A stretch of 33,931 nt of DNA. It comes from Deltaproteobacteria bacterium. GTDB lineage: Bacteria > Myxococcota_A > Polyangia > Polyangiales > JADJMO01. The stretch covers positions 1 to 33,931 of the forward strand of contig JALHOE010000085.1 of the NCBI GenBank assembly GCA_022843175.1, in the 5' to 3' direction. A model generated the notes under the pieces. That model saw nothing but the letters and a program-made list of their open reading frames with translations. It was not told the origin of the DNA and did no database searches. Position numbers and translations under genes: made by a program. This document shows, piece after piece, positions 3,927 through 30,795 of the stretch; the first letter of the stretch is position 1, and the number at the start of each line of letters is the position of its first letter.

Positions 3927-3937
3927 CCTGCTCGGCC

Positions 3938-4450: not shown

Positions 4451-6804
4451 GCGAGGAGCATCTGGTGCTGTGTGGAGGCGCGCGCGGCGCCTCGCGTGCG
4501 GCCACCGTCCTGCGCCTCGCGCCCCCGCGCAAGAACGTCGGGCTCCACCTCGCCGGCCTCGATCCGCGCGCGCCGATCCCGCCCGCCTTCCTCGACCTCA
4601 TCGAGCTCGCCGCCTACGTCGAGGCCGCCGACGTGACCGTCCGCGGGGAGCGGCGCCGGTTCCGCGTGGTGATGCCGTTCCGCGAGCCCGAGCTGTTCAG
4701 CGATCCGGCGGTGTTCGTTCCGCTCCAGCGCACGTTGGCCGCGCTCTCCGGCGACGAATACCGGTTCGAGGCCCGGCCGCGCACCACCCGCGACCGCGCG
4801 CCGTTCGCGGCGGAGGACGTGCGGCCGCTCCCCGACGGCAAGCTCGACGTCGTGCCCTTCTCGGGCGGGCTCGACTCCTTCGCCGGTGCGCTCCGTCTCG
4901 TGCGCGACAAGCGCAACGTCGTCCTCGTCGCCCACCGCACCACGCCGCGGATCGAGCCCTTCGTGCGCAAGCTCGTCGAGCACCTCGGGTCCCTCGGCGG
5001 GGAGCGGGTCTCGTTCGTTCCCCTGTGGCACGAGCGCGAGGGCCGCGGCGCGCCGCGCGCGCGTGGGTTCCTGTGGACGGCGGTCGCCGGCGCGATCGCC
5101 GCCACCGCGCCGCGCTCGGCGGTGCGCTTCTTCGAGAACGGCGTGGTGAGCATCGGCCTCCCGCTCTCTGCGGCGGGGCACTCGCTGCCCGTCGCGCGCT
5201 CCGCGCACCCGCGGGTGCTCGCTGGCTACCAGCGGCTGTTCGGCGCGCTCGCCGCCCGCGCCATTCCCGTCGACAACGGGTTCCTCTTCACCACCAAGGC
5301 CGAGGTCGTGCGCAGCGCCGATGGCCCGATGCTCGCCGCCACCGTCAGCTGCACCAAGCGCCCGGCGCGTCCCTTCACCCACTGCGGCATCTGCGCGCAG
5401 TGCATCGACCGCCGTTTCGCGACCCTCGCCGCGGGCACCGTCCACGACCCGGCGAGCCTCTACGCCGTCGATCTCTTCACGGGCGACCGTCCGCCCGGCG
5501 AGCCGCGCGCGATCGTCGAGGCCTACCTCCGCGCCGCGGGAGAGATCTCCCGCGCCAGCGATCACGAGCTCTTCGCCCAGTATGGCGAGCTTGCCCGCGT
5601 GCTCGGCCACGTGCCCGGCGGCGTCGACGAAGCCGCCACCAAGCTCGTCGATCTACACCGCCGCCACGCCGCCGAGGTCGAGGCCGTGGTCGACGCGGGC
5701 ATCCGCGAGCACGCCACCGCGCTGCGCCGCGGGTCGTTGCCGGGAGGCTCGTTGCTCGTGCTCGCGCTGCCGCCGCCGCCGCCGGGCAGCGAGCGAGAGT
5801 CGAGCCCGGCATCGGTCCGCGCACGACCGGCACCTCCGGGGCTCGTGCGTGTCCTTCACCTCTCCGATCTGCACTTCTCCAAGCGGCGCGCGTGGGACCA
5901 GGACCCGGTGCTCGCGGCGCTCGCGCGGGACGTGGCGGCGCTCGCGAGCGAGGGACACAAGCCGGATCTGGTGGCGATCACCGGCGACGTCGCCGACCGC
6001 GGCACGCCCGACGAATATGCGCTCGCCACCCGCTTCCTCCGCGAGCACCTCCTGCCGGCGAGCGGCGTGGGCGTCGACCGGCTGCTCCTGGTGCCCGGAA
6101 ACCACGACGTCGACCGCAGCGTGGTCAAGCGCGTGGCGCAGGCCGCGCAGACCGATCTCCTGCGCTCCGAGAGCCAGGACGCGATCGCGGCGATCCTGTC
6201 CGACCCGTCCGAGCGCGCGCCGCTCCTTCGCCGTCACGATGCCTGGCTCGCGTTCGTCGCGTCGCTCGGTGCCCCGCACGACGAGCTGCCCTGGTGGTCG
6301 CGCACGCTCCACGTCGGCGCCATGGACGTGCACGTCGCCGGGCTGTGCTCGTCGTGGGCCGCGTGGTGCGACGAGGACAAGGGGCGGCTGCTCCTCGGCC
6401 GCGCACAGCTGCACCAGGTGCTGTCCGGCGCCGAGCGCGCGCATCTCAGCATCGCGCTCGTCCACCACCCGTGGGACTACCTCGCGGACTTCGACGCCGC
6501 CGAGGCGCGCGAGGCGATCCATCGCCGCTGCGACTTGCTCCTCCGAGGCCACCTGCACAAGGGCGAGGGCGCCGCGCGCATTCGCCCCGACGGCGGTTCG
6601 CTCGAGCTCGCTGCGGGCGCGTCGTGGGGCGGCAGCCAACACCTCCACGGCTATCACCTCATCGAGCTCGACCCTTCCGCGGGCACCGCGCGGGTCTTCC
6701 TTCGCACGTGGGACGGTCACGACTGGATCGCCGACCGCAACGCGTACCGCGGCGCCGCGCCGGAGGGCGTCGCGACGTTCCCGTTGCGCGCGCGGCGCGC
6801 GTAA
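4447..6804 (+). CDS. QatC/QueC-like PP-loop domain fused to calcineurin-like metallophosphoesterase
   Basis: This 785-residue protein has two enzyme domains. Residues about 1-340 resemble QatC of the Qat anti-phage system more than housekeeping QueC. There is an N-terminal domain of about 130 residues, then the ATP-binding PP-loop SGGLDS at 139-144, an FFENG motif, an RSAHP segment, an FTTKAE segment, and a zinc site C302, C313, C316, C319. QueC adenylates carboxy-deazaguanine and converts it to preQ0; what QatC-type enzymes modify is less clear. Residues about 341-465 are a helical and Pro-rich linker. Residues about 466-785 are a full metallophosphoesterase: D474-L-H476, GD with D514, GNHD at 551-554, H673 and GHLH at 701-704. 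All metal ligands are present, so phosphodiesterase or nuclease activity is plausible. The GTG start overlaps the upstream stop. Qat systems normally use a separate TatD nuclease; here the fused domain may replace it (inference). Confidence 0.88.
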   Translation: MSEEHLVLCGGARGASRAATVLRLAPPRKNVGLHLAGLDPRAPIPPAFLDLIELAAYVEAADVTVRGERRRFRVVMPFREPELFSDPAVFVPLQRTLAALSGDEYRFEARPRTTRDRAPFAAEDVRPLPDGKLDVVPFSGGLDSFAGALRLVRDKRNVVLVAHRTTPRIEPFVRKLVEHLGSLGGERVSFVPLWHEREGRGAPRARGFLWTAVAGAIAATAPRSAVRFFENGVVSIGLPLSAAGHSLPVARSAHPRVLAGYQRLFGALAARAIPVDNGFLFTTKAEVVRSADGPMLAATVSCTKRPARPFTHCGICAQCIDRRFATLAAGTVHDPASLYAVDLFTGDRPPGEPRAIVEAYLRAAGEISRASDHELFAQYGELARVLGHVPGGVDEAATKLVDLHRRHAAEVEAVVDAGIREHATALRRGSLPGGSLLVLALPPPPPGSERESSPASVRARPAPPGLVRVLHLSDLHFSKRRAWDQDPVLAALARDVAALASEGHKPDLVAITGDVADRGTPDEYALATRFLREHLLPASGVGVDRLLLVPGNHDVDRSVVKRVAQAAQTDLLRSESQDAIAAILSDPSERAPLLRRHDAWLAFVASLGAPHDELPWWSRTLHVGAMDVHVAGLCSSWAAWCDEDKGRLLLGRAQLHQVLSGAERAHLSIALVHHPWDYLADFDAAEAREAIHRRCDLLLRGHLHKGEGAARIRPDGGSLELAAGASWGGSQHLHGYHLIELDPSAGTARVFLRTWDGHDWIADRNAYRGAAPEGVATFPLRARRA

Positions 6805-11386: not shown

Positions 11387-13297
11387 TCAGACTCGCGCGT
11401 CGAGGTGACGGCGCACCACGTCGAGGAACCCGTCGCCGTAGGTTTCCACACGATATGGGCCCATGCCGGGCACCGCGAGCAGGGCGTCCTCGGAGCGGGG
11501 CTTTTGCTCGGCGATCGCGAGGAGCGTGGCGTCGGGGGCGATGACGTAGGCCGGGACGCGCCGGTCGCGGGCGACCTCGCCGCGATGGAGGCGGAGCGCC
11601 TCGTACAACCCGGGGTCGGAGCTCGTCCGGGGGGTGGCCTTCGACTTGCGCTCCCGACGCTCGCGCTTCGGCGTGGGCTCGCTCGGGAGGCGCAGGCGGA
11701 CCGCGCCGTCGCCCTTCATGATCTTCCATCCGGGCTCGGTGACGAAGGGCACCGGATGCTCGGTGGGTGTCAGATCGACCCACCCGGCGGCGAGCAACGC
11801 GCGGAGCAACGCGACGATCCATGCCTGCGAGCGGTGGGAGAGGAGCCCGAACGTGGACAGCTGATCGAAGCCGAACTTCTCGGTGCGCGCGGTGCGGTCG
11901 CCCCGCAGCATGTCGGCGACGGCGACCATGCCCGCCCGCTGCTTCGCGCGCGCGACGCCGGCGAGCGCCTTGCGCACCTCGATCGCGACGTCCTCGGAGG
12001 CTTCCTCGAGGTCTCCCTCGTCGTCGAGCGCTTCGCACACGTCGCAGTGGCCGCAGCCGCCGAGGATCTCGCGCTCGTCGCCGAAGTAACGAAGGATGAA
12101 GTCGTGGCGGCACGTCCGCGCGTCGAGATAGCGGAGCAGCTCGCGAAACAAGCCCCACGCGCGCGCCGCGGCCTCGGGCGGCGCCGGGCCGTCGATGCTC
12201 GACTCGCACAGGCGCCGGCGGAGCTGCACGTCGCTCGAGCTGCACAAGAGGACGCCGTGCGCGTCGTTGCCGTCGCGGCCGGCGCGCCCGACCTCCTGGT
12301 AGTAGGCCTCGAGCGACGCCGGGGGCTGGGCGTGCACGACCACGCGCACGTCCGCGCGATCGATGCCCATGCCGAAGGCGTTGGTGGCCGCGACGACCGC
12401 GAGCTCCCCGTCTGCGAAGCGCGCGTTGACCCGGGCGCGAACCGACGAGTCGAGCCCCGCGTGGTAGGCCGCGGCGTTGAAGCCTGCTTTGATCAGATCG
12501 GCCGCCATCTGCTCGGTGCCGCGGCGGGTCGCGCAGTAGACGATCGCGGTCCCGGTCGGCGCGCGCGCCGAGCCGAGCGCCTGCTCGAGCGCCTTCATCA
12601 CCTTGGTGCGCGCCTCCTTCGGTCCGTCGACCGAGAAGGCCTCGAGGTGCAGGTTCGGGCGCGCGAACCCGCGGAGCACCTCGTGCGCGCCGTCGAGGTT
12701 GAGCCGCTTGCGGATCTCCTCGCGCACGCGCGGCGTGGCCGTGGCGGTGCAGGCGAGGACCCGCTCCGGCTTCAGGCGCGCGAGCACCTCGCCGATGCGC
12801 AGGTAGTCCGGCCGGAAGTCGTGGCCCCAGTGCGAGATGCAGTGCGCCTCGTCGATGGCGACCATGCTCACCTCGCAGCTGGCGAGGAACTCGAGGAACC
12901 ACTCCGAGGCGAGCCGCTCCGGCGCGCAGTACAGGAGCTTGAGTCGGCCCTCGTGGGCGTCGCGGATGCGCGCGCGTCGCTCGTCCGGGCCGAGGGTCGA
13001 CGCGAGGAACGCCGCGGGGATGCCCCGCGCGTTGAGCGCTCGGACCTGGTCCTCCATGAGCGCGATCAGCGGCGAGATCACCAGGGTGACCCCGGGCAGA
13101 ACCGCGGCCGGGAGCTGATACGTGAGCGACTTACCGCCGCCGGTCGGGGCGACGACCAGGACGCGACGAGGCCCCTCGAGCAGCGCGTCGATCGCTTCGC
13201 GCTGCCAGGGGCGGAAGGCGGGGAGCTGAAAGCGCGTCCGGAGGACTTCGTCGAGGTCGGTCGTCACGAGCGGGAGAATTGGCTGTAGCACGAGCAT
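11387..13297 (-). CDS. recQ: ATP-dependent DNA helicase RecQ
   Basis: This 636-residue 3'-to-5' DNA helicase acts in recombination and fork repair. Visible motifs in order: PTGGGKS (Walker A) near 51, DEAHCISHWGHDFRPDY near 149, TATATP, and the second RecA lobe with FGMGIDRADVR and YYQEVGRAGRDG. After that comes the RecQ zinc site CRHDFILRYFGDE followed by CGHCDVC, a winged-helix region, and a C-terminal HRDC domain (about 560-636). I chose the ATG at 13297, after which conserved sequence starts within 20 residues. A longer open frame upstream is low-complexity Arg/Ser sequence antisense to the next gene and is not believable. A 100-base gap separates it from the divergent metallophosphoesterase. 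A PAS-GGDEF gene follows 12 bases downstream. Confidence 0.95.
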   Translation of the reverse strand: MLVLQPILPLVTTDLDEVLRTRFQLPAFRPWQREAIDALLEGPRRVLVVAPTGGGKSLTYQLPAAVLPGVTLVISPLIALMEDQVRALNARGIPAAFLASTLGPDERRARIRDAHEGRLKLLYCAPERLASEWFLEFLASCEVSMVAIDEAHCISHWGHDFRPDYLRIGEVLARLKPERVLACTATATPRVREEIRKRLNLDGAHEVLRGFARPNLHLEAFSVDGPKEARTKVMKALEQALGSARAPTGTAIVYCATRRGTEQMAADLIKAGFNAAAYHAGLDSSVRARVNARFADGELAVVAATNAFGMGIDRADVRVVVHAQPPASLEAYYQEVGRAGRDGNDAHGVLLCSSSDVQLRRRLCESSIDGPAPPEAAARAWGLFRELLRYLDARTCRHDFILRYFGDEREILGGCGHCDVCEALDDEGDLEEASEDVAIEVRKALAGVARAKQRAGMVAVADMLRGDRTARTEKFGFDQLSTFGLLSHRSQAWIVALLRALLAAGWVDLTPTEHPVPFVTEPGWKIMKGDGAVRLRLPSEPTPKRERRERKSKATPRTSSDPGLYEALRLHRGEVARDRRVPAYVIAPDATLLAIAEQKPRSEDALLAVPGMGPYRVETYGDGFLDVVRRHLDARV

Positions 13298-13397
13298 GCC
13301 GGGGCTCGATCCGGCGCGCGCTCCGGTTGCGTACGCCGCCCAATCCGCCCGTCGCGCGAGCGAACTCCCCGAAGCGTGCACCGAGCGCGCGTTGCCC

Positions 13398-14486
13398 ATG
13401 CCGCCGCCGCGTGCTTCCTTCGATCGCGTGAGGCGCCTGCTGATCTTCGCGCTCTTGTTCTCGTGCTTGCGGGTCGCGTCTCCTCGCGTCGAGCGCGACC
13501 GCGCGGTCGGGCTCGCGGCGGAGCGGGGGGTGTCGGTCGAGGTGCGGGGGGGCCTCGGCGCCGTGCGCGCGCTCGACGCAGACACGCTGCGCATCTGGGC
13601 CAACGCGCCGGCGCTTCACCTCACCGTCTCGGCGAGCCCGCGTCCGTTCACGATCCGGGTCGACAACGTCCTCCCCACAACCCGCTCCGCGCCGGTCGCC
13701 GGGCGGCCGCTCGCGCGCCCGACCTCGTTCGAGATCCGCGTCCGCCCCGAGGACTTTACCGGGGGCCGCCTCGAGCTCGACGTGGGCGACCTCGAGCCCG
13801 AGAGCACGCCGTTCCGGTTCCTCATGTATGCCGACGTCCAAGAGGCGATCGATCGCGTGCAGGACGTGTATCGACGCATGCGCGAGGCCGGCGGCCGCTT
13901 CGCGATCTGCGCGGGCGACCAGACCACGCATGGCGGTCGCGACGAGCTGGAGCGCTTCGAGCTCGAGCTGCAGACGCTGGACATGCCGGTCTACATGACG
14001 CTCGGCAACCACGAGCTCGGTCGACCGGAGGTCCCCTACCACGACTACTTCGGTCGCGGCTCCTCGTCGTTCTTGTTCCATGGGGCGCGCTTCACGCTGC
14101 TCGACTCCGCGAGCGCGACGCTCGACCCCGAGGTGTACGACTGGCTCGACGAGTGGCTGCTCGCGGGACGCGAGGGCCTGCACATCGTGTCGATGCACAT
14201 CCCGCCGCTCGATCCGGTCGGCGTGCGCAGCGGCTCGTTCGCGAGCCGCAACGAGGCCAACAAGCTCCTCGCGAAGCTCGCCGCCGGGCGCGTCGACCTC
14301 ACGCTCTACGGTCACGTCCACTCGTACTACGCGTTCAGCAACGCGGAGATCCCCGCGTTCATCGCGGGCGGCGGTGGCGCGATCCCCGAGCGGATGGACG
14401 GCGTGGGCCGGCACTTCCTCGCCGTCGACGTCGACCCGCGCGCTCAGTCGCACGTCACGACGCTCGTCCGCGTCGACGGCGAATAA
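13398..14486 (+). CDS. exported metallophosphoesterase with an altered first motif
   Basis: This 362-residue protein has an N-terminal signal-like segment (about residues 11-27), an Ig-like beta region (about 45-130), and a calcineurin-type phosphoesterase domain from about 138. Motifs seen: D146-V-Q148 in place of the usual DxH, AGDQ with D174, GNHE at 203-206, MHIPP and YGHVH. All metal ligands except the first histidine are present. Such enzymes cleave phosphomonoesters or diesters with two metals; acid-phosphatase-like and CpdA-like members are close in layout. The His-to-Gln change may alter the metal or weaken activity. The ATG at 13398 fits a leader; a GTG at 13428 would give a shorter one starting at the Arg-Arg-Leu-Leu stretch. 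It reads away from recQ. Substrate unknown. Confidence 0.85.
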   Translation: MPPPRASFDRVRRLLIFALLFSCLRVASPRVERDRAVGLAAERGVSVEVRGGLGAVRALDADTLRIWANAPALHLTVSASPRPFTIRVDNVLPTTRSAPVAGRPLARPTSFEIRVRPEDFTGGRLELDVGDLEPESTPFRFLMYADVQEAIDRVQDVYRRMREAGGRFAICAGDQTTHGGRDELERFELELQTLDMPVYMTLGNHELGRPEVPYHDYFGRGSSSFLFHGARFTLLDSASATLDPEVYDWLDEWLLAGREGLHIVSMHIPPLDPVGVRSGSFASRNEANKLLAKLAAGRVDLTLYGHVHSYYAFSNAEIPAFIAGGGGAIPERMDGVGRHFLAVDVDPRAQSHVTTLVRVDGE

Positions 14487-14601
14487 AACGCCCGGCGTTC
14501 GCCTGCTCGCGCGGCCTTTCGCCGCGTCGACCCGAGCGCCCCGGACGGCGCGCAATTTCCCGCTGTAGACGGCCAGTTGTCGCCGGCGTTTCATACGACG
14601 A

Positions 14602-15024
14602 ATGGAGGGGGCGGGGGCTTCTACATTGCGTTGGAGCGATCGCTCGGCGTTGGTCCTCGTCCGTGACGACGACCTGCGCGAGACGATCGCGACCCTGGTC
14701 GGCGAGCTGAGCTGCTTCGTCGTCGCGACCGCGGCCGATCTGGCCGAAGCGCGGCGCATTATCGCGAGCACGCCCCCGTCCGTGATCATCGTCGCGCCGA
14801 GGTGGCTCGACGCCGACGTCGCCGCGCTCCTTCGCGAGCTGCCGGGCGACGATCCGGCGATCGTCGTGATCGCCGCGAGCGACCGCGCGCCGCTGCACGA
14901 GAACGCGATCGTCGTCACGGCGCCGTTCGACGTCGAGGCCCTGCTCGCCGCGATCGAGGACGCCCTCTCCAGCGCCCGCACCTCGCGGACGCGGATCGCC
15001 GTGGCCCAGCCGCCCGGGGGCTGA
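14602..15024 (+). CDS. receiver-like protein without the phospho-acceptor aspartate
   Basis: This 140-residue protein has the strand and helix pattern of a response-regulator receiver domain: an opening strand ALVLV followed by an acidic Asp-Asp-Asp cluster, and a third strand VIIVAPRWLD. Where the phosphorylated Asp should stand the sequence has Ala-Pro. Near the end, TAPFD replaces the conserved Lys-Pro. It has no output domain. It would therefore be an unphosphorylated (pseudo) receiver acting by protein contact, if it is expressed. The ATG at 14602 leads into a Gly-rich stretch. A TTG at 14626, eight bases after a GGGGG run, is an alternative start closer to the domain edge. It stands between the metallophosphoesterase and dCMP deaminase genes, with no link that I can infer. 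Confidence 0.65.
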   Translation: MEGAGASTLRWSDRSALVLVRDDDLRETIATLVGELSCFVVATAADLAEARRIIASTPPSVIIVAPRWLDADVAALLRELPGDDPAIVVIAASDRAPLHENAIVVTAPFDVEALLAAIEDALSSARTSRTRIAVAQPPGG

Positions 15025-15064
15025 CCTCTACCCCCCCGCGAGCGGGCTTGATACGACCGGCGCC

Positions 15065-15514
15065 ATGAGCGCACCCGAAGCAGCGCACGCGCCCCGCGCG
15101 AGCTGGGACGAATACTTCATGAACATCGCGCGCGAGGTCGCCACCCGCGCGACGTGCAATCGCAAGCACGTGGGCGCGGTGATCGTGCGCGAACGAAGCA
15201 TCCTCGCGACCGGCTACAACGGCTCGATCGCCGGGCTGCCCCACTGTGACGAGGAGGGGCACTTGATGGAAGACGGCCACTGCGTCCGCACCATCCACGC
15301 CGAGGCCAACGCAGTGATTCAGGCCGCGCGCAACGGCGTGCGCATCGACGGCGCGATGATCTACGTAACCGCGTCGCCCTGTTTCGGTTGCTTCAAGCTT
15401 CTCGCCAACGCCGGCATCAAGCGGATCGTGTACGGCGAGTTCTACCGCGACCAACGCAGCATCGAGTTCGCACAGCGCCTCGGGATCGAGCTGATCGAGG
15501 GCCGCGCGCAGTAG
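15065..15514 (+). CDS. dCMP deaminase family protein
   Basis: This 149-residue zinc deaminase probably converts dCMP to dUMP for thymidylate synthesis. Catalytic site: HAE at 78-80 with the proton-shuttling Glu80, and PCFGC with Cys106 and Cys109 as zinc ligands. The GYNGS segment at 50-54 and the HC at 60-61, with further Cys31, His72 and Cys73, match the second zinc site seen in dCMP deaminases of the ComEB type. The length is normal. The stop is 22 bases from the convergent end of the small lipoprotein gene. Substrate is assigned by family only; a tRNA or riboflavin role is less likely given the second zinc site. Confidence 0.92.
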   Translation: MSAPEAAHAPRASWDEYFMNIAREVATRATCNRKHVGAVIVRERSILATGYNGSIAGLPHCDEEGHLMEDGHCVRTIHAEANAVIQAARNGVRIDGAMIYVTASPCFGCFKLLANAGIKRIVYGEFYRDQRSIEFAQRLGIELIEGRAQ

Positions 15515-15536
15515 GGCTCCCGTGAGATGAAGCTCC

Positions 15537-16070
15537 TCAGTTCGCTGCGATCACCTTGACCGGCGCAGCCGCGTCGTCGGGCACCCGTGCTTCGGCGATG
15601 GCGGCGCGCAGCAGCGGCGCGGCCTCGGCGCCGGTCACTCGACTCGCGCGGAACAAGCCGCGGCACTGGGGCGTGGTCGCCGGGATCGGGAGCTTCATGC
15701 GGAGGAAGGCCTCGGCGCGAAACATGATGGTCACCTCGCCGCAGCGTGATTTGGAGCCGGGGCCGATCGAGGCGTCGAGCGAGACGAGCGACGCGCGAGC
15801 CAGATCGAGGCGGCCGTCGATGCGCGGCCAGCGTGCGAGGAGCTGCTCGCCGCCGCGGACCTCGTGCAGCCATCGCTCGAGAACGACGGGGGCCTCGCGC
15901 GCAGGGGCTCCCGCGACGGCGCCGATGACCTCGGCGAGCGAACCGGTGGGGAGCGCCGCGAGCTGCACCTTCGTCTCGTGATCGTGGCCGTCGGGATCGG
16001 TGGCCCCGTCTGCCTCGCCACAACCGGTGGCGAGACAACAAAGGACTACCCCGAGCACGGACCTGCGCAT
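15537..16070 (-). CDS. small lipoprotein of unknown function
   Basis: This 177-residue protein starts with a clear lipoprotein signal: Met-Arg-Arg, a hydrophobic core, then LATGC at about residues 14-18. An Asp/His-rich stretch follows, then a domain with two cysteines in the contexts KSRCGEV and TPQCRGL, which may form a disulfide. I do not recognise the family. The frame extends 15 codons further upstream, but the ATG at 16070 gives the standard leader. It follows the aminotransferase gene by 66 bases on the same strand. Confidence 0.75.
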   Translation of the reverse strand: MRRSVLGVVLCCLATGCGEADGATDPDGHDHETKVQLAALPTGSLAEVIGAVAGAPAREAPVVLERWLHEVRGGEQLLARWPRIDGRLDLARASLVSLDASIGPGSKSRCGEVTIMFRAEAFLRMKLPIPATTPQCRGLFRASRVTGAEAAPLLRAAIAEARVPDDAAAPVKVIAAN

Positions 16071-16136
16071 TGCGAGGCCCAGGGGGGCGAGAAACATACC
16101 GCGCGGGACGAGCACAAAAGACTCGTCGCGACCACG

Positions 16137-17366
16137 CTACCGCAGAGCCGCGACGAGCTCGTCCACCAGGCGGGGCACGTCGCGCTCGGCGACCGAGCAG
16201 AGCGCGACGCGGAGACCGTCGCCCTGCGGGACGACGAAGACGCCTCGCTCTCGCAGCGCCGCCGCCGCGCGCGCGACGTCGCGGCCGGGCGGCACGACGA
16301 CCGTGGTGAAGAAGCCGCCGTCGTAGCGCGGGTAGCGGAGGCCCTTTCCCTTGGCTGCGGCGTTGAACGCGCGCACGCGGCCGTCGAGGAGCGCCTTGAG
16401 CCCGTCGCGCTCCTGGTCGACGCGCGCGCGGAGCGGCGCGTCCGCCAACAGGCGGGTGACGGCGAGCATGCCGAGGTGGTTGCAGTTGGACCACGTGCCG
16501 CGACAGGAGAACGTGAGCGCGTCGAACGTGCGTTTGCGACGGGCGGCGTCTGGATCCACGAACACCAGCGCGCCGACCCGCGCCCCGTACTCGGTGAACG
16601 ACTTGGACGCCGACCACGCGAACGCGAGCCCGGCCCTGCCCGCGAGCGGCTCGAGGTGAGCGAGGAAGGCGCGCGGATCGCCCTGTCCATAAAGCCAATA
16701 TGCAACGTCGACGAGGAGGGTGGTGGGCACCCGCGCCGCGACCGCGGCCACGCTCTCGCGCACGGCCTGCCACTCGGCGGGGCGCATCGAGTAGCCGGTC
16801 GGGTTCTGGCAGGGGTCGTTGAGGAAGACGAGGACGCGGCCCTGCTGCTCCGCCTGCTTGCGGATCGCGGCGTCGAAGGCGGCGACGTCGAGCTGCCCCT
16901 CGTCTCCGTTCCACTGGAACATCGAGAAGGTGTCGACCTTGCGGTCGTTCTCGTCGGCGATCGTCTTGTAGGGACCCCAGTAGAACGACGACGTGAGCAG
17001 CGCCTGGCCCGGCTCGAGGTAGTTGGTGACCGCGTGGCGTAGCGCGCCGGTGCCGCCGGGGGTGGCGACCGCGACCGCGTGCTCGGCGAGCGCGCTGCCC
17101 CCGAGGAGATCGGCGATGACCGCCTGCAGAAAGTCCTTGGAGCCCGCGAGCGGCGCGTAGCCGGCCGCGCGCGCGGGCGAGACCTCGCGCACCGCTTCGA
17201 TGACCGCGGGGAGCACCGCGAGCTTGCCGTCGTCGTCGAGCAGCGCGCCGACGGTCGCGTTGATGACCGCCTCACCCTTGTCGCGTCTCGCCGTCGCTTC
17301 GGCGTTGAGCGCAAAGATCGGGTCGTCGGCCGGCCGGGCGGTGCGGGTCGGGATGAGGAACTCCAT
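16137..17366 (-). CDS. PLP-dependent aminotransferase, class I/II
   Basis: This 409-residue fold-type I aminotransferase would exchange amino groups between an amino acid and a 2-oxo acid in the cytoplasm. Visible features: the cofactor Lys255 in SASKSF, DPCQNPTGY around Asn188 (contacts the pyridine ring), DVAYW with Asp220 and Tyr223, and a C-terminal GLRVALCSV segment supplying the carboxylate-binding Arg. The PGGTGALR motif near 103-110 resembles tyrosine or aromatic aminotransferase-like members that start with a short arm. The substrate cannot be fixed from sequence; aromatic or aspartate is most likely. The ATG at 17366 is chosen because sequence before it is low-complexity. It diverges from the phosphatase-like gene, with 46 bases between the starts. 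Confidence 0.92.
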   Translation of the reverse strand: MEFLIPTRTARPADDPIFALNAEATARRDKGEAVINATVGALLDDDGKLAVLPAVIEAVREVSPARAAGYAPLAGSKDFLQAVIADLLGGSALAEHAVAVATPGGTGALRHAVTNYLEPGQALLTSSFYWGPYKTIADENDRKVDTFSMFQWNGDEGQLDVAAFDAAIRKQAEQQGRVLVFLNDPCQNPTGYSMRPAEWQAVRESVAAVAARVPTTLLVDVAYWLYGQGDPRAFLAHLEPLAGRAGLAFAWSASKSFTEYGARVGALVFVDPDAARRKRTFDALTFSCRGTWSNCNHLGMLAVTRLLADAPLRARVDQERDGLKALLDGRVRAFNAAAKGKGLRYPRYDGGFFTTVVVPPGRDVARAAAALRERGVFVVPQGDGLRVALCSVAERDVPRLVDELVAALR

Positions 17367-23331: not shown

Positions 23332-24900
23332 TCACTTGGCTATCGGTACCTCGAGCGAGGCGCTCGGATCGGCAGTGAGCGTCTCGACGGTCGCGAAGCC
23401 CTTTTCGGGATCGACCACCCGAACCTTGCCAAAACGGCGCAGCGGCTGGGCGAGCGACGGGTCTCCGGCGACGGCGATGACGATGTTGTCGAGGCTCAGC
23501 GTCTGGGTCGCGATCGCACGGACGCGGTCGAGCGACGCGTCGCGCAGCGCGGCGCGGTAGGTCGAGACGTACTCGTAGACGTCCTTGCCCGGCAGCCCGA
23601 ACGTGATCTGGTCGGCCGCGAGTCCACCGACGGCGCCGATCGTCTCGAGGCGGAACAGGAACCCGGTCTCGATGCTCGTCTTGGCGATCGCGAGCTCGCC
23701 CGCGTCGATCGGCTTGGACTTGGAGATCCACTCCAGGTGCTCGAGGAGCGCAGTGACCGACTTGGGGGCGAGCGCGGTCTGCGTGCCTGCGTACAGCGCG
23801 ACGACCGAGCTCCCCGACGAAAGCTCCCGCATCGAGGCGCTGGTCGAGTAGGCGAGCGAGCGCTTCTCGCGGACGTCGACGAAGAGCCGCGAGGCCATGC
23901 CGCCGCCGAGCGCGTGCACCGCGAGGGCCAGCTCGGGCCACCGCGCGTCGGTGCGAGGGATCGAGCGTGCGCCGACGAGGATGTCGGCCTGCTTCGAGCC
24001 AGGGCGCTTGGCGAAGACCACGCGCGGCGGCTCGGTGCCCTTCGGGTCCTCCACCGCCGCCGCGTCGGCCTTGGTGTTGGGCACCGAGACGTGCTTGGTC
24101 ACCGCGGCGCGGAGCGCGCTCTCGTCGATGTCGCCGGCGACGATGACGGTGGTGCGGGGCGCGACGTACGTCTTCTGGTAGAACGCGCGCGCGTCGGCGA
24201 GCGTGATCGCCTCGAGCGACTCGACCGTCGCGTCCACGAGGCCGTAGGGGTGGCTCGGTCCGAACAGCTCGTTGTAGAGCGCGCCGCGCGCGACCCACGA
24301 GCCGCTGCCCTTCTGCGACTGCTTCACGCGATCGAGCTCGCGGGCCTTGAGCTTCTTGAACTCGCCGGCGTCGAAGCGCGGCTTGCTCACGACGGCGCCG
24401 AGGACCTCCAGCGCGGCGTCGAGCTTGTCCTTGGTGACCGCGAGGCCGAACACGACGCGGTCGGGGCCGACCTCGACGCTGAGGTCGCTGCCGAGCGCGT
24501 CGACCCGGTCGGCGAGCTCGCGCGGCGCGAACCGGCCGGCGCCGCCCTCTTTGAGCAGCTCGGCCACGAGGTTGGCGAGGCCGGCGCGCTTCTCGAGGGG
24601 CGTGGTGGCCGCGGCCGCCGCGTTGCCGGCGCGGACGACGATTCGGCAGTGCACGACCGGGATCGCCGGCGAGGCGATCGCGATGACGCGCACGTCCTTC
24701 ACCTTGCTCTCGGTGACCGTGGCCGGCTTGAGCGGCTTCGGCTCGCCGGGCGGCGGCACGTCGGCCATCGACGGCGCGGCAGCCGTCTTCGGTGCGGGCG
24801 TGGGCACCGGCGCGACGGGGATCGGGGTCGCCGGGATGGTCGCCGTGCTGCCGCCGCACCCGAGAACCAGAGCCGCGAGCGTGAGCGAACGGTGGTTCAT
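23332..24900 (-). CDS. M16 family lipoprotein, non-catalytic partner
   Basis: This 522-residue protein starts with a lipoprotein leader (LVLGC, Cys15) and a Pro/Ala-rich linker to about residue 55. Two M16 (insulinase or processing-peptidase) domains follow. The zinc motif HxxEH is absent: the matching helix reads TPLEKRAGLANLVAELL. The second half retains the RLFVDVREKRSLAYS motif that binds substrate in the partner subunit. Two-gene M16 peptidases need one catalytic and one such partner. It begins on the last base of the upstream catalytic gene (TGATG overlap at 24900), so translation is coupled. The lipid anchor places the complex in the periplasm or at the outer membrane. Confidence 0.93.
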   Translation of the reverse strand: MNHRSLTLAALVLGCGGSTATIPATPIPVAPVPTPAPKTAAAPSMADVPPPGEPKPLKPATVTESKVKDVRVIAIASPAIPVVHCRIVVRAGNAAAAATTPLEKRAGLANLVAELLKEGGAGRFAPRELADRVDALGSDLSVEVGPDRVVFGLAVTKDKLDAALEVLGAVVSKPRFDAGEFKKLKARELDRVKQSQKGSGSWVARGALYNELFGPSHPYGLVDATVESLEAITLADARAFYQKTYVAPRTTVIVAGDIDESALRAAVTKHVSVPNTKADAAAVEDPKGTEPPRVVFAKRPGSKQADILVGARSIPRTDARWPELALAVHALGGGMASRLFVDVREKRSLAYSTSASMRELSSGSSVVALYAGTQTALAPKSVTALLEHLEWISKSKPIDAGELAIAKTSIETGFLFRLETIGAVGGLAADQITFGLPGKDVYEYVSTYRAALRDASLDRVRAIATQTLSLDNIVIAVAGDPSLAQPLRRFGKVRVVDPEKGFATVETLTADPSASLEVPIAK

Positions 24901-26309
24901 CACTTCCCCTCCTTCTTCGCCGCCGGCATCACCCGCACGTGCGCGAGCTTCTCGCGCACGAGGTACTTCGCCACGGCTGCTTTCACGTCGGCGGCGGTGA
25001 TCTCGAGGTATCGATCGGGCTCGGTCTTCAGCGCGCCGGCGTCGCCGTGGTGGCCCTCGAACTTGGCGAGCGCCATCGCGCGCGACAGGTTGGCCTGGAG
25101 CCCGAAGAGAAACGCGTGCTCGACCTTGGCGCGGGCCTTCTTGAGCTCGGCGTCGGTGGGACCCTTCTTCGCGAGGTCGTCGAGCTCGAGCCACACCGCC
25201 TTCTCGGCGTCCTCGAACTTCGCCTTGTCGGCGAGCTGCACGTTGATCACGAACGCGTCCGGGCCGCGGTGGTCCTCGGTGCTCGCCTCGGCGTCCTGCG
25301 CGAGCGCGAGGTCTTTCACGAGCTTCTGCTTGAAGCGCGCGCTGTCGCCGCCGCTCAGCACCGCGGCCGCGATCTCGAGCGCGTAGTGCTCCTTGGTGTG
25401 GTCGGGCGGGATCGACCACGCGAGCATGGTGGCGCCGGTGCGCGCGTTGGGGTCCATCACCGGCTCGGGGCCCGTGGGCGTCGCGCGGCCCGCGAACGGC
25501 GGCAGCTCCTTGATCGGCGCGGGGATCTTCGCGACGCCGTCGAAGTACTTGTGAATGAGCGCCTTCGCCTGCGCGGTGTCGATGTCGCCGGCGACGACGA
25601 GGACCGCGTTGTTCGGGCCGTACCACCGCTTGTGGAACGACTGCACCCACTCGATCTTCGCGGCGTCGAGCTCCTGCATCGACCCGATCGCCGGGTGCGA
25701 ATAGGGGTGATAGCCCTCGTAGACGAGCTCCATCAGGCGGAAGTAGCCCTTGATGTACGGCGCGTTGTCGACGCGCATCCGGTACTCCTCCTGCACGACC
25801 TTGCGCTGGTTCTCGAACGCCTCCTGGTCGATGTGCAGCGACTTCATGCGGTCGGCCTCGAGGTAGAGCGTCACCGCGAGCTCGCTCGACGGCATCAGCT
25901 CGAAGTACCGGGTCCAGTCCTCGCTGGTCGACGCGTTCAACTTGCCGCCGCGGCCCTCGACGATCTTGTCGTGCATGCCGCGCGGAACCCCGGCGCTCCC
26001 CTCGAACATCATGTGCTCGAACAGGTGCGCGAAGCCGCCCTCGCCGGGTTTCTCGTTGCGCGAGCCGACGTCGTACCAGACGACGACCGCGAGCGTCGGC
26101 GAGGTGGGCTCCGGGTTGAGGACGACGCGGAGGCCGTTGTCGAGCGTGAACCGCTCGATAGCGAGCTTTGGCCGAAGTGGTTGAACCTGCGCGGCGGCCC
26201 TGTCCACGGCCGCGGTCTTGGCGGGCGCCGGCGCCGGTTTCTGAGCGCTGGAGACGGAAGACAAAACCAACCCGGCAACAGCTAGCGATGAGCCGACGCG
26301 CAGACGCAT
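24900..26309 (-). CDS. M16 family zinc peptidase, catalytic subunit
   Basis: This 469-residue peptidase is exported through a signal peptide (residues 1-22) with no lipobox. The inverted zinc motif HLFEH is at 95-99, and Glu175 is the third ligand in QEEYRMR, 76 residues later, which is the family spacing. The second M16 domain follows from about 250. These enzymes cut peptides inside a closed chamber formed with their partner, here the downstream lipoprotein. The two genes overlap by one base. The promoter should lie in the 266-base gap shared with the GIDE-domain gene. Confidence 0.94.
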   Translation of the reverse strand: MRLRVGSSLAVAGLVLSSVSSAQKPAPAPAKTAAVDRAAAQVQPLRPKLAIERFTLDNGLRVVLNPEPTSPTLAVVVWYDVGSRNEKPGEGGFAHLFEHMMFEGSAGVPRGMHDKIVEGRGGKLNASTSEDWTRYFELMPSSELAVTLYLEADRMKSLHIDQEAFENQRKVVQEEYRMRVDNAPYIKGYFRLMELVYEGYHPYSHPAIGSMQELDAAKIEWVQSFHKRWYGPNNAVLVVAGDIDTAQAKALIHKYFDGVAKIPAPIKELPPFAGRATPTGPEPVMDPNARTGATMLAWSIPPDHTKEHYALEIAAAVLSGGDSARFKQKLVKDLALAQDAEASTEDHRGPDAFVINVQLADKAKFEDAEKAVWLELDDLAKKGPTDAELKKARAKVEHAFLFGLQANLSRAMALAKFEGHHGDAGALKTEPDRYLEITAADVKAAVAKYLVREKLAHVRVMPAAKKEGK

Positions 26310-26557: not shown

Positions 26558-26575
26558 TTCTGTTCGGAGGCGGTG

Positions 26576-27808
26576 ATGCAGTATCTCGGTTTTTTCCTGC
26601 TGGCCCTCGCAATCGGCGGCCTCATTTTTGGTCTGCTGCAGCGTTCGAAGATGAAGAAGATCCTCGCGGCTCCGTTCAGGAAGACGGGCGAGATCGCGTC
26701 GAACCCGCAGGCCGGCGACGCCAAGGGAACCGTTAGCACCGAGGGCGCCATCCAGGTTCAGCAGCCCCTCATCGCTCCCTGCTCCGGCAAGCCCTGTCTC
26801 TATTACGAGATCAAGGTCGAGCGTATGTGGGAGAAGACGGTCGCGACCGAGAACGGCACCAAGACCGAGAAGGGCACCAGCACCGTCGCCACGTCGGAGC
26901 AGGGCTCGCAGTTCCAGGTCAACGACGGCTCGGGCCCGGTGGCCGTGGACGCGCGCGAGAAGGTCGACACCGACCTCACCAAGTCGTTCGAGCAGGCGCA
27001 GAACGTCAGCTACGGCGACCTCGTGTTCGGCCAGTACTCCGTCCACGTCCCGTACTCGGGCGGCGAGGAGCACACGACCGGCGTCCGCGCCATCGAGAAG
27101 ATCCTCCCCGCCGAGGGCAACGTCTTCGTGATGGGCAAGCTCGCGGGCGGCGCGATCACCAAGCAGGACGGCATGCTCGGCAAGCTGCTCATCTCGACCA
27201 AGGGTCGTGACAAGCTGGTCGGCTCCACCAAGCGCAACTCGATCCTCGGCTTCGTCGCCGGCGGCGTCCTGTTCGCGGGCGGCATTCCGATGTCGATCTT
27301 CGGCGAGGCGCCCAAGAGCGCCTGCGACAACATGGAGAACGCCCTCAAGGAGGGTGTCTGCAGCGGTCGCGTCAACGACAACGCCGGCTCCACCCACGAG
27401 TGGAAGGTCACCAAAGAGGGCGCCTACAAGCTGACCGTCACCGCGACGGGCACCAACGCCAACATGAAGCTCTGGCCGAAGGTGCTCATCACCAAGGACG
27501 GCAAGGAAGTCGCCGACGACGGCTCCGAGGGCGGCGAGGGCGCGAAGGTCATCGCGCACTTCGAGAAGGGCACCTACAAGATCAAGATCGCGGACGTCTC
27601 CGCGTCGCACGTCGGCAAGCTCAAGGGCGGCGCCGGCTACACCCTCGACATCAAGCAGGCCTCGGACTCCGAGGCGAAGGCCGTCTCGCCCAAGAAGGAC
27701 GAGGAAGAGACGAAGAAGGACGAGGAGAAGAAGGACGAGGAGAAGCCCGCCGAGGAGCCCAAGCCCGCCGCCAAGGCGCCGGCGAAGGCCCCCGCGAAGA
27801 AGAAGTAA
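26576..27808 (+). CDS. membrane protein with a GIDE domain and a C-terminal beta domain
   Basis: This 410-residue protein has membrane segments at about 3-22 and 222-241. Between them, at about 50-205, lies a GIDE-type domain: a start Gly-Thr-Val, then LIAPCSGKPCLYYEIKVE, a long FQVNDGSGPVAVDA strand pair and a GVRAIEKIL-(x)-VFVMGKL segment. GIDE domains are best known from the mitochondrial E3 ligase MUL1/MAPL, but bacterial versions without a RING finger occur; no RING is present here. Residues about 255-358 look like a beta-sandwich of the prepeptidase C-terminal (PPC) type. The tail is Lys/Glu/Pro/Ala-rich. A GGAGG site five bases before the ATG at 26576 decides the start over the GTG at 26573. 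Function unknown; in bacteria probably membrane stress or assembly (inference). Confidence 0.85.
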   Translation: MQYLGFFLLALAIGGLIFGLLQRSKMKKILAAPFRKTGEIASNPQAGDAKGTVSTEGAIQVQQPLIAPCSGKPCLYYEIKVERMWEKTVATENGTKTEKGTSTVATSEQGSQFQVNDGSGPVAVDAREKVDTDLTKSFEQAQNVSYGDLVFGQYSVHVPYSGGEEHTTGVRAIEKILPAEGNVFVMGKLAGGAITKQDGMLGKLLISTKGRDKLVGSTKRNSILGFVAGGVLFAGGIPMSIFGEAPKSACDNMENALKEGVCSGRVNDNAGSTHEWKVTKEGAYKLTVTATGTNANMKLWPKVLITKDGKEVADDGSEGGEGAKVIAHFEKGTYKIKIADVSASHVGKLKGGAGYTLDIKQASDSEAKAVSPKKDEEETKKDEEKKDEEKPAEEPKPAAKAPAKAPAKKK

Positions 27809-27831
27809 GCGCTTCTTCGTTTCTCTCGACG

Positions 27832-27867
27832 TAGCCGCGGGCTCACCCCCGCGGCTATGTTGTTTTT
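27832..27867 (+). terminator. intrinsic terminator after the GIDE-domain gene
   Basis: A perfect ten-base stem (TAGCCGCGGG at 27832-27841 with CCCGCGGCTA at 27848-27857) has a six-base loop and is followed by TGTTGTTTTTG. This is the clearest rho-independent terminator in the window. It also shields the small lipoprotein gene that begins at 27871. Confidence 0.85.
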
Positions 27868-27870
27868 GTC

Positions 27871-28110
27871 ATGCGTTCGGTCCTGCTCTGGCTGGTGCTC
27901 GCCGCCTGCCACAACCCGCGGCCGCTCGAGTGCCAGCGGCTCAAGCAGTGCTGTTCGGCGGCGCAGGGCAGCAGCGCGGACTCCGAGGCCGTTCGCGCGG
28001 CGTGCATGCGCAAGGACGACAGCGACGCGACGCAGTGCAAGCAATACCTCGAGCAGGTTCGCGCCGAGGTGCCGGGAATGTCCGACCGCGACGAGTGCAA
28101 GCTCCCGTGA
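27871..28110 (+). CDS. small six-cysteine lipoprotein, plus-strand copy
   Basis: This 79-residue protein has a short leader and a lipobox-like LAAC (Cys13). The mature part has cysteines spaced C-x5-CC-x16-C-x10-C-x19-C, ending two or three residues after the last Cys. The convergent neighbour at 28114-28371 has the same pattern with nearly identical gaps, so the two are paralogues. The domain is probably a disulfide-rich periplasmic module; its function is unknown. It starts three bases after the terminator of the upstream gene, which leaves little room for a promoter of its own; it may rely on read-through or on a promoter inside the terminator region. Confidence 0.7.
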   Translation: MRSVLLWLVLAACHNPRPLECQRLKQCCSAAQGSSADSEAVRAACMRKDDSDATQCKQYLEQVRAEVPGMSDRDECKLP

Positions 28111-28113
28111 GCG

Positions 28114-28371
28114 CTACTTGCACTGGGTGGGCAGGTTCTTTGCCGGCGTGAACTTGGCGATGTCGGCGATCGTCTCGACGCAGCCCTCGTCGAGCTCTGG
28201 GTTGTGGTGGCAGAGGATCTCGTGCTCCTTCGGCAGCCCGTTCTCCACAACCTTGAGCGCCGTGCAGCAGGCGCGCATCTTCTCGCAGTTCGGCTTGGCG
28301 TTGGCCCGGGCACACCCGGCGTGAGGGACGAGTGAGAGACCGAACAGGAGCGTCAGCAAAGCGAACCGCAT
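28114..28371 (-). CDS. small six-cysteine lipoprotein, minus-strand copy
   Basis: This 85-residue protein has a hydrophobic leader ending in HAGC (Cys20), which fits a lipobox only loosely. The mature part has cysteines spaced C-x5-CC-x17-C-x9-C-x19-C and ends one residue later. This is the same arrangement as the protein encoded tail-to-tail at 27871-28110, including the shared start C-x-x-(Leu/Met)-(Lys/Arg)-x-C-C. Stops are three bases apart. Family unknown; a secreted or membrane-tethered disulfide module is likely. Confidence 0.72.
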   Translation of the reverse strand: MRFALLTLLFGLSLVPHAGCARANAKPNCEKMRACCTALKVVENGLPKEHEILCHHNPELDEGCVETIADIAKFTPAKNLPTQCK

Positions 28372-28422: not shown

Positions 28423-28827
28423 CTAGCGTCCGGAGCCGCTCGGCGCGGGCGCGATGGACGTGGTCGCGCCCATCTGCGAGAGGGCGACGTAGCCGAACGC
28501 GAGCGCGACCAGGAGCGCGACCGAGGTGACGAGCAGCGGCCAGGGGGAGGGGCCCTTGGGGTCCTTGCTGGAGTAGAAGCGGCCGCGGGAGCGCAGGTGG
28601 AGCCGCCGCTGGACGCCGGGGAGCAGGTCGGGCTCGTCCGAGGCGACGCCCGCCTGCACGGCCTTCTTGAGCCCACCGCCGAGCGCAGCCTCGACCACTC
28701 GACAGCGTTCGCAGCTCTCGACGTGCGCCTCGACGCGCGCGGCCTCGTCACCCGACAGCTCGCCGTCGCGCAGAGCGTCGAGCAAGCCGATCGCCTCCTC
28801 GTGGGGAAGCGGCGCTTCTCCGTTCAT
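28423..28827 (-). CDS. zinc-finger (zf-HC2) anti-sigma factor
   Basis: This 134-residue protein has an N-terminal anti-sigma zinc finger with the HxxxCxxC motif (HVESCERC near 34-41) and a single membrane segment (about 95-115) with a short exported tail. Such proteins hold an ECF sigma factor at the inner membrane and release it on a signal. The start overlaps the sigma gene stop (ATGA at 28824-28827), the usual arrangement for a cognate pair. The tail of about 20 residues is Ser/Pro-rich and carries no clear sensor domain, so the signal may reach the zinc finger or another membrane partner. Confidence 0.9.
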   Translation of the reverse strand: MNGEAPLPHEEAIGLLDALRDGELSGDEAARVEAHVESCERCRVVEAALGGGLKKAVQAGVASDEPDLLPGVQRRLHLRSRGRFYSSKDPKGPSPWPLLVTSVALLVALAFGYVALSQMGATTSIAPAPSGSGR

Positions 28828-29507
28828 CCGCCGTCTCCTTCGTCGCGAACGCGACGTCCATCCTTGCCGACCGCCACCTTGCCGCCGACCCGCTCGCCGA
28901 GCTTCTCCTCGACGTAGAGGCGAACCTGCGCGCGCGCGCGGTGGATCCGCGACTTGACGGTGCCGGGCGGAAGCGCGGTGATCTCGGCGATCTGGTCGTA
29001 GCTCATGTCCTCGACCTCGCGGAGCAGGAGGCACTCGCGGAACGAGTCCTCGAGCTCGGCGATGGCGGCTTGCACGATCCGCTCGACCTGCATGCCCTCG
29101 ACGAGCTGGTCGGGCCGAGCCACGTCTCCCGCGGTGCCCTTGGTGGCCTGCCCGAGCGGCACCCGCTCGCCGAGCTCGTGGGCGTCCTCGTTGGCCGAGC
29201 CCTGGCCCGCGTGCCGGCGCGAGAGGTAGAGCGCGCGGTTCTTCGAGAGGTTGACCGCGATCCGAAAGATCCAGGTCGAGAGGCGCGAGTCGCCGCGGAA
29301 CTGATCGATCGCGCGAAAGACCTGCACGAAGACCTCCTGCGAGACGTCCTGGGCCTCGGCGGGGGTGCCGAGCATGCGCACGACGAGCGCATACACGCGC
29401 CGCTCGTAGGCGCGCACGAGCGAATCGAACGCGCGCTCGTCCCGCGCCCGCAGACGCGCGAGGAACGCTGGCTCCTCGAAAGGTGAAGCGCTGTCCGCGT
29501 CCGACAT
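28824..29507 (-). CDS. ECF RNA polymerase sigma factor
   Basis: This 227-residue sigma factor has region 2 (DSLVRAYERRVYALVVRM, then DVSQEVFVQVF and TWIFRIAVNL) and region 4 (FRECLLLREVEDMSYDQIAEITALPPGTVKSRIHRAR). It recruits polymerase to a small stress or envelope regulon. The ATG at 29507 is preferred to earlier in-frame starts because conserved sequence begins about 20 residues later and the upstream frame is low-complexity. The next gene is its likely anti-sigma factor, with overlapping stop and start. A possible ECF-type promoter and a long palindrome lie upstream (29546-29642). The C-terminal tail is longer than usual, with a Lys/Gly/Arg-rich end. Confidence 0.93.
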   Translation of the reverse strand: MSDADSASPFEEPAFLARLRARDERAFDSLVRAYERRVYALVVRMLGTPAEAQDVSQEVFVQVFRAIDQFRGDSRLSTWIFRIAVNLSKNRALYLSRRHAGQGSANEDAHELGERVPLGQATKGTAGDVARPDQLVEGMQVERIVQAAIAELEDSFRECLLLREVEDMSYDQIAEITALPPGTVKSRIHRARAQVRLYVEEKLGERVGGKVAVGKDGRRVRDEGDGG

Positions 29508-29545
29508 TCCGGCGCCCCGAGCGTACGCGAGGGACAGCCGGTACC

Positions 29546-29703: not shown

Positions 29704-30795
29704 CTACATGGCCGTGGCGATGGGGCCGCCAGCGATGACGCGATCGCCGTCGTAGAGGACGCAGATCTGGCCGGGGGTGACGGCGCGCGCGGGCGTATCG
29801 AACCAGATCTCGGCGCCGCGCTCGCGCGGGGTGACCGTGGCCGCGGAGCCCTCGTGGCGGTAGCGGATGCGCGCGGTGACGCGGCGTTCGCTCGGCGCCT
29901 CGAGCCACGCGACGGAGGAGAGCCGCGCGCCGCGCGCTTCGACGTCGGCCACTCGCCCGAGCTGCACCCGCGCCTCGGCCGGATCGATCGAAGCGACGAA
30001 CGCCGGATGCCCCATCGCGACGCCGAGGCCGCGGCGCTGGCCGATGGTGAAGCGGTGGATGCCGTCGTGCTGGCCGACCACGCGGCCGTCGGCGTCGACG
30101 ATCGGTCCCGGCCGGATGCGCTCGCGCGCGCGCCGCTCGACGAAGCCTGCGTGGTCCCCGGCGGTGAAGCAGAGGTCCTCGCTGTCGGGCTTGTCGGCCA
30201 CGGGCAGCCCGCGTTCGCGCGCGATGGCGCGCACGGCGGGTTTGGTCAGCGGGCCGAGCGGGGTCACGAGCATCGAGAGGGCGTGGGCACCGATGCCGTG
30301 GAGGAAGTAGCTCTGATCCTTCTTGCGATCGACGCCGCGAAGCAGCGCCGGCGCGCCGTCGATCGCCCCCGCGCGCGCGTAGTGACCGGTCGCGAAGCCC
30401 ACTGCGCCGAGCTTGCGCGCGAGGCCGACGAACGCGCCGATCTTGACCTCGCGGTTGCACGCCACGCACGGCGAGGGCGTCTCGCCCTCGAGGTACGACT
30501 CGACGAACGGCGAGACCACCTCCGCTTCGAAGGCTTCGCGACGGTCGAACGTGAAGAACGGGATCCCGATCGCTGCGGCCGTGCGGCGCGCGTCGGCGAT
30601 GTCCTCGGGCGCGCAACAGCGCGAGGGCGAGGGATCGCCGTCGCCGTATTCCCACAGGTGAAGGGTGACGCCGACGACGTCGAACCCGCGGTCGCGGAGG
30701 AGCAGCGCAGCGACGGCGGAGTCCACCCCTCCGCTCAGGCCGACGAGGACCCGAGCGCCGGCAGGGAAGAGCTCCTCGCGCGCGATCAGCTGCAC
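29704..30795 (-). CDS. mnmA: tRNA-specific 2-thiouridylase MnmA
   Basis: This 363-residue enzyme adds sulfur to U34 of tRNAs for Lys, Glu and Gln. Signatures: PP-loop SGGVDS at 21-26, the RCCAPED segment, catalytic Cys110 in SPCVACN and Cys209 in DLCF, HYAR, and the GQRRGLG motif in the C-terminal tRNA-binding part. Length and order match MnmA. The sulfur would come from a cysteine desulfurase encoded elsewhere. The stop is followed by a 196-base gap that holds the palindrome and the sigma promoter, so mnmA is probably not co-transcribed with the sigma gene. Confidence 0.97.
   Translation of the reverse strand: MQLIAREELFPAGARVLVGLSGGVDSAVAALLLRDRGFDVVGVTLHLWEYGDGDPSPSRCCAPEDIADARRTAAAIGIPFFTFDRREAFEAEVVSPFVESYLEGETPSPCVACNREVKIGAFVGLARKLGAVGFATGHYARAGAIDGAPALLRGVDRKKDQSYFLHGIGAHALSMLVTPLGPLTKPAVRAIARERGLPVADKPDSEDLCFTAGDHAGFVERRARERIRPGPIVDADGRVVGQHDGIHRFTIGQRRGLGVAMGHPAFVASIDPAEARVQLGRVADVEARGARLSSVAWLEAPSERRVTARIRYRHEGSAATVTPRERGAEIWFDTPARAVTPGQICVLYDGDRVIAGGPIATAM

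Follow-up and report, generated by a model that had tools for sequence, protein, structure and literature searches.

Two small genes at positions 27871 to 28371, here named A and B, very probably encode two minimal and divergent representatives of an extracytoplasmic domain family, so far undescribed, that is spread through the Myxococcota. The skeleton of the family consists of six conserved cysteines, C-x5-CC followed by three single Cys residues, located at the C-terminus of membrane-tethered proteins or close to it. Its three longer gaps are x9 to x29, x9 to x16, and mostly x19 to x23, with a last gap of x12 in outliers (G278 and a second G003 gene).

The gene pair and its conservation

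The window, meaning the whole 33,931-nucleotide stretch of DNA that was analysed, is an entire contig of a 9.75 Mb genome (G000). Genes A and B and their neighbours are located as follows.

24900 to 26309, minus strand: M16 peptidase, divergent from the GIDE gene (Pfam E 1e-31)
26573 to 27808, plus strand: GIDE (PF12483) protein located upstream of A, two TM helices predicted (Pfam E 1.2e-15; hydropathy)
27827 to 27862, plus strand: terminator-like hairpin and T-run between GIDE and A (consensus match only)
27871 to 28110, plus strand: gene A, 79 aa; signal sequence of 12 residues and lipobox VLAAC preceding the six-cysteine domain
28111 to 28113, no strand: gap of 3 bases separating the A and B stop codons (from sequence)
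28114 to 28371, minus strand: gene B, 85 aa; signal sequence and PHAGC, a non-canonical lipobox-like motif, preceding the six-cysteine domain
28423 to 28827, minus strand: zf-HC2 anti-sigma factor, one TM helix predicted (Pfam E 3.7e-10; hydropathy)
28824 to 29510, minus strand: ECF sigma factor (Pfam Sigma70_r2 E 5.9e-17, r4_2 E 2.8e-16)
29704 to 30795, minus strand: MnmA, adjoining the ECF sigma gene (Pfam E 6.8e-65)

An earlier, sequence-only reading of this DNA had described a common pattern, C-x5-CC-x16/17-C-x9/10-C-x19-C, in two proteins that are encoded on opposite strands with stops three bases apart and that end right after the last Cys. The two open reading frames agree with each of these points: A is arranged as C-x5-CC-x16-C-x10-C-x19-C with 3 residues beyond the last Cys, and B as C-x5-CC-x17-C-x9-C-x19-C with 1 residue beyond it. 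RNA folding at the A/B junction was unremarkable (z -0.18).

A second genome of genus g1 (G001, contig C166) also has the pair, again tail to tail, with the stops about 60 bases apart. Between the two genomes, mature A is 51% identical with a pairwise dN/dS of about 0.48, mature B is 83% identical with a pairwise dN/dS of about 0.15, and GIDE has a dN/dS of 0.51. Judged from these sequence comparisons, constraint is stronger on B than on A. With the pair and its order kept in a second genome, and with these dN/dS values, A and B look like real genes. Orthologues of A were found in three genomes of family f1 (G001, G002, and G004); for B an orthologue was found in G001 only, and the G002 and G004 matches did not include it.

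A domain family detected by profile searches

Profiles were grown from A and B and enlarged stepwise to give A8 (10 rows), A13 (14 rows), A14 (25 rows), and A15 (35 rows). The early profile search matched 5 of 183 genomes of the order at E ≤ 0.01, including a doubtful one (G017, E 0.008, with an internal stop). Profile A8 led to four lipoproteins of family f28, the count of 29 at this stage (E ≤ 0.05) containing weak matches, and a scan of the loci around GIDE relatives showed that in four f6 genomes the GIDE proteins terminate in this six-Cys skeleton. Profile A13 extended the family to 18 f28 genomes and to G003, G482, G341, and G040; its count of 32 (E ≤ 0.02) also contains weak matches, among them those of G203 and G227, and the four that were inspected (L158 to L161) lack the motif. 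With A14, 24 of the 183 order genomes were matched at E ≤ 0.01, 23 of which had the skeleton (G013 did not), and eight of the matched genomes belong to f3, each giving two or three matches.

The search of myxobacterial genomes that the earlier reading had proposed produced relatives: A15 matched at least 40 of the 377 genomes of the phylum at E ≤ 0.001, distributed over eight families (f1, f3, f5, f6, f16, f26, f28, and f30). The A15 counts are lower bounds because only the best 16 candidates per genome were scored when more existed, and the same scope applies to the 337 genomes for which no A15 match was obtained. Each of the 40 matched genomes carries at least one skeleton-bearing sequence. 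Sixteen of them have no row in A15, and all six of the new genomes among those 16 (G009, G476, G231, G278, G249, and G280) possess the skeleton. A profile of B alone, run against the 183 order genomes, recovered genus g1 plus one short weak match and nothing else, and no B relative was confirmed in the named genome collection.

Shuffle tests of the cysteine skeleton

A and B were shuffled with their cysteines fixed, and the shuffles were scored against the profiles. Against a 29-member profile lacking A and B, A scored 27.2 bits, a value reached by none of 2000 shuffles (best 24.8), and B scored 20.7 bits, reached by 1 of 2000 (best 20.9). The G001 copies scored 22.9 (A) and 20.3 bits (B) against this profile, with 0 of 2000 shuffles as good for each. 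The f28 profile gave 22.0 bits for A (0 of 500 shuffles as good) and 10.5 for B (4 of 500), and a profile from A orthologues alone gave B a score that was reached by 34 of 500 shuffles. With the f6 profile neither protein was recognised: 149 of 500 shuffles did as well as the 2.3 bits of A, and 434 of 500 did as well as B. An open reading frame without the motif, L158, obtained 19 to 21 bits with four of the smaller profiles, which is above B. Because the cysteine-fixed shuffles come close, much of the score represents the cysteine skeleton, with a small surplus beyond it; similarity beyond the cysteines is present with the 29-member profile and is weaker or absent with the smaller ones. The test is partly circular rather than wholly independent, as the members were found with profiles containing A and B. 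The link of A and B to the f6 GIDE tails rests on the larger profile. Direct hhalign comparisons of A and B to these tails were unconvincing (P 0.053 to 0.058, probability about 1%).

These results bear on the alternative that A and B are small exported proteins of unrelated origin whose shared cysteine spacing is convergent. Their pairwise similarity beyond the cysteines is weak, the shuffles score nearly as high as the real sequences, and a less strict DNA pattern covering the last five cysteines occurs at 105 places in the genome, a number that is uninformative alone (reversed control, 444). The real sequences nevertheless beat the shuffles, the 35-row alignment contains six invariant Cys columns, and profile searches of the window's own genome gave only A and B among the best 16 to 33 candidates scored. 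We consider convergence very improbable. Chance sharing of the spacing, which the earlier reading had named as grounds for rejecting kinship, is likewise at variance with the profile relatives and the shuffle results.

Predicted tether and fold

The domain usually ends the protein, with 1 to 12 residues after the last Cys in 31 sequences compared and 1 to 6 in a second set of members except L188 (95 residues); G009 also has a longer tail. Two kinds of tether are predicted: a lipobox, either directly before the domain (A and f28) or with a linker (G003, G482, and some f3 members), and a TM helix plus a Pro/Ala/Gly-rich linker (f6 GIDE, f3 zinc ribbon, f5 multi-TM, and G114). The order is Zn_Ribbon_1, TM, linker, and domain in the f3 fusions, and multi-TM, linker, and domain in the f5 fusions.

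Lipoboxes were assigned with a PS00013-type pattern, by pattern match rather than by a trained predictor. The pattern fits A in G000 (VLAAC) and G001 as well as 17 of 17 f28 members tested, and fails in two of four A orthologues (G002 and G004; LGADC) and in B (PHAGC in G000, PGTGC in the G001 orthologue). By this pattern the earlier description of both proteins as lipoproteins holds for A and is doubtful for B, whose PHAGC is non-canonical.

AlphaFold2 models of A contain three helices at residues 7-21, 27-34, and 41-54 (pLDDT 82, 4 alignment rows), and those of B contain three short helices at 10-22, 29-34, and 49-55 (pLDDT 60.8, which is low confidence, 2 rows). Disagreement between structure models had been expected to count against relatedness; compared by helix position, each model has three helices in roughly corresponding places, those of B at low confidence. 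We infer Sec export, three disulfides, and a three-helix head that lies near the membrane outside the cytoplasm.

Comparison with databases and named systems

The six-cysteine domain is real and seems to be undescribed in the libraries and literature searched. Both A and B were below every cut-off of Pfam and NCBIfam, in keeping with the earlier reader's statement that the domain was not known to it. The best Pfam E value for 14 aligned members was 0.016. Among ten longer relatives, only an N-terminal Zn ribbon passed in Pfam, in two of them, and none matched NCBIfam at E ≤ 0.05. Sequence searches of the PDB gave 0 matches for B alone and a best E of 0.74 for the profile. Structural comparisons gave generic matches only, with a best E of 3.4 in Foldseek and a best Z of 4.8 in VIA-align (protein A B-domain); these weak results do not show a new fold. 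The literature search, which mostly did not reach subscription papers, returned no description of this six-cysteine domain.

The copper storage protein CSP1 (8r4l_A), which contains cysteines, is small and helical like A and B and aligned over 67 residues (VIA-align Z 3.6, rmsd 3.2), but its Z is no better than those of unrelated three-helix proteins (top Z 4.8) and the identity is 6%. GIDE proteins (PF12483) are linked to the domain in that four f6 members carry it C-terminally and A lies near a GIDE gene in three f1 genomes; PF12483, however, covers residues 88-250 of the L092 protein and does not include the six-Cys part, which is terminal.

Among named C-terminal elements of Myxococcota, the closest is MYXO-CTERM, whose architecture is different. 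Like the family studied here, MYXO-CTERM is C-terminal, bears cysteine, and occurs in envelope proteins of this phylum, the substrates of myxosortase; it consists of a short Cys motif with a TM helix and then an Arg-rich tail behind it, and it is cleaved (PMC11980579). In the family studied here, the six cysteines form a domain that usually ends the protein, and the tether is N-terminal to the domain. With 3 and 1 residues beyond the last Cys, A and B lack the MYXO-CTERM signature.

Origin of the pair and the f1 loci

The sequence-only reading had called the two genes paralogous and had interpreted them as an inverted duplication of a small gene. The first term applies in the wide sense of one domain family, as a profile lacking A and B detects both above cysteine-fixed shuffles; the second is not supported. 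If B had arisen from A by local tail-to-tail duplication and then diverged, the adjacency of the genes on opposite strands would be explained, and the duplication is also favoured by a last spacing of x19 that occurs only in A and B orthologues among 31 sequences compared (x21 to x23 in the other 25) and by the finding of B nowhere else in f1. Against this, A and B are only 14 to 22% identical, depending on the alignment, BLASTP aligns them with E = 0.013 over 16 residues, and hhalign gives P = 0.00068 yet a probability of 27% over 20 columns. Inverted repeats shared by A and B are short (≤20 nt at 75%). In a tree of 43 domains and 70 columns, poorly resolved with few columns and 21 of 40 inner branches open, the A group (100/99) and the B group (100/100) form separate branches that do not join, and B is placed among f28 rows with weak support. 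The pair also joins two gene blocks that are non-adjacent in G002 and G004. We regard a local duplication as unlikely.

The arrangement points to a seam of two blocks that were joined in genus g1, because in G002 and G004 A is followed by different genes, a separate contig carries the ECF block, and B was not found (the G004 contig ends soon after the sigma gene). On the B side, MnmA adjoins the ECF sigma gene in all five f1 genomes, G000 to G004, as read from translations, and in the window B is 51 bases downstream of the TM zf-HC2 anti-sigma gene on the same strand, with the ECF sigma gene further upstream. On the A side, the order is GIDE, A in G000 and G002 and GIDE, MFS, A in G001; M16-like genes, read by eye, lie beside GIDE-A in G002 and adjoin A in G004. 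The 62 bases from GIDE to A are filled by the terminator-like hairpin, and 801 bases contain 3 such sites compared to 0.6 expected from shuffles. Weaker hairpins are also present 3' of GIDE in G001 and G002. Because these hairpins follow GIDE in 3 of 3 f1 loci with GIDE and A, co-transcription of the two genes is doubtful.

The T-run of the hairpin at 27827-27862 ends a few bases before the ATG of A and leaves little space for a promoter or ribosome site. The genome of the window also encodes a second GIDE protein (L101, G000:C236:603-1823) that is 73% identical to that at 26573-27808; the available flank on C236 contained no six-Cys gene.

Possible function

The recurrent neighbours or fusion partners of the domain are membrane signalling proteins: GIDE, the ECF/anti-sigma proteins (for B), and, in 10 of 12 f28 loci, a receptor kinase that has a PhnD-type domain. 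A role as an outer part or partner is suggested by the fusions and neighbours. Taken as a whole, we think it somewhat probable that A and B represent an undescribed C-terminal extracytoplasmic domain that works on the outer side of a membrane signalling protein, as part of it or as its partner. The six-Cys protein would be exported, oxidised, and held at the membrane with its helical head facing outside, and this head would serve a membrane signalling protein either as its outer portion or as a separate partner on the outside. In the fused form the head would end GIDE, zinc-ribbon, or multi-TM proteins, and in the free form it would act in trans on the product of a neighbouring gene. B would act on the TM anti-sigma factor encoded just upstream, and A perhaps on GIDE. 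The role of outer partner, considered by itself, has rather less than an even chance, and the pairing of B with the anti-sigma factor and that of A with GIDE are each distinctly doubtful.

A competing explanation is a free-standing structural or metal/thiol-binding exported protein with incidental signalling neighbours. The neighbours do vary between families, terminator-like sites occur 3' of GIDE, and G004 (87% complete) retains A with no GIDE found; the f28 loci, however, keep the kinase (10 of 12) and an FHA-GAF-HD protein (11 of 12) adjoining, and the domain is fused to GIDE, Zn ribbon, and multi-TM proteins. This explanation is possible, though we would not expect it to hold. Far less credible, indeed extremely improbable, is a ribosomally made, enzyme-modified peptide precursor of the MNIO/DUF692 type. 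A and B are small, exported, and Cys-containing, and a lipidated MNIO product exists (PMC12636315), but an MNIO domain was not found among the neighbours scanned with Pfam, CPACGMG-type motifs are absent from A and B, and the domain also ends large membrane proteins.

Returning to the signalling role, the domain may tentatively be a phylum-specific extracytoplasmic sensing or docking module that is plugged, fused or as a lipoprotein, into otherwise unrelated membrane signalling proteins such as GIDE, zinc-ribbon proteins, the PhnD-type receptor kinase, and the ECF anti-sigma factor; if so, A and B would feed two different pathways from adjacent genes. The family supplies a profile for Myxococcota envelope proteins that are left blank by domain libraries and, for bacterial GIDE proteins and the PhnD-type receptor kinase, a candidate partner that faces outward. 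Specific interaction tests are enabled by the fusions and conserved neighbourhoods.

Loci in other families

In f3 and f5 the neighbours vary between loci, and with a crude gene caller, no common neighbour was seen for G482, G003, G040, or the f3 lipoprotein loci. In three f3 loci (L219, L221, and L226) the Zn-ribbon-TM-six-Cys gene lies between respiratory complex I-like genes, identified by eye, and a small conserved protein, one copy of which was scanned and had no Pfam match at E ≤ 0.001.

The f28 neighbours were grouped by BLAST clusters, with Pfam run on one representative per cluster. The six-Cys lipoprotein gene is divergent from the kinase gene in the 10 loci noted above, and an APH-like gene is present in 8 of 12. 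All 11 kinases of the f28 loci have a C-terminal Phosphonate-bd (PhnD-type) domain, one of them truncated. The kinase at 3064-5280 (minus strand) of L164 consists of a Ser/Thr kinase, one predicted TM helix, and a C-terminal PhnD-type phosphonate-binding domain; it and the ten further f28 kinases are possible receptor kinases with a substrate-binding-protein sensor. In a single-contig f28 genome (L165, G308:C1:1081500-1100500), the block of receptor kinase, six-Cys lipoprotein, and APH-like genes occurs twice, inverted and about 7 kb apart, at 2964-6181 and 12945-16610, with one kinase copy truncated in the Phosphonate-bd domain.
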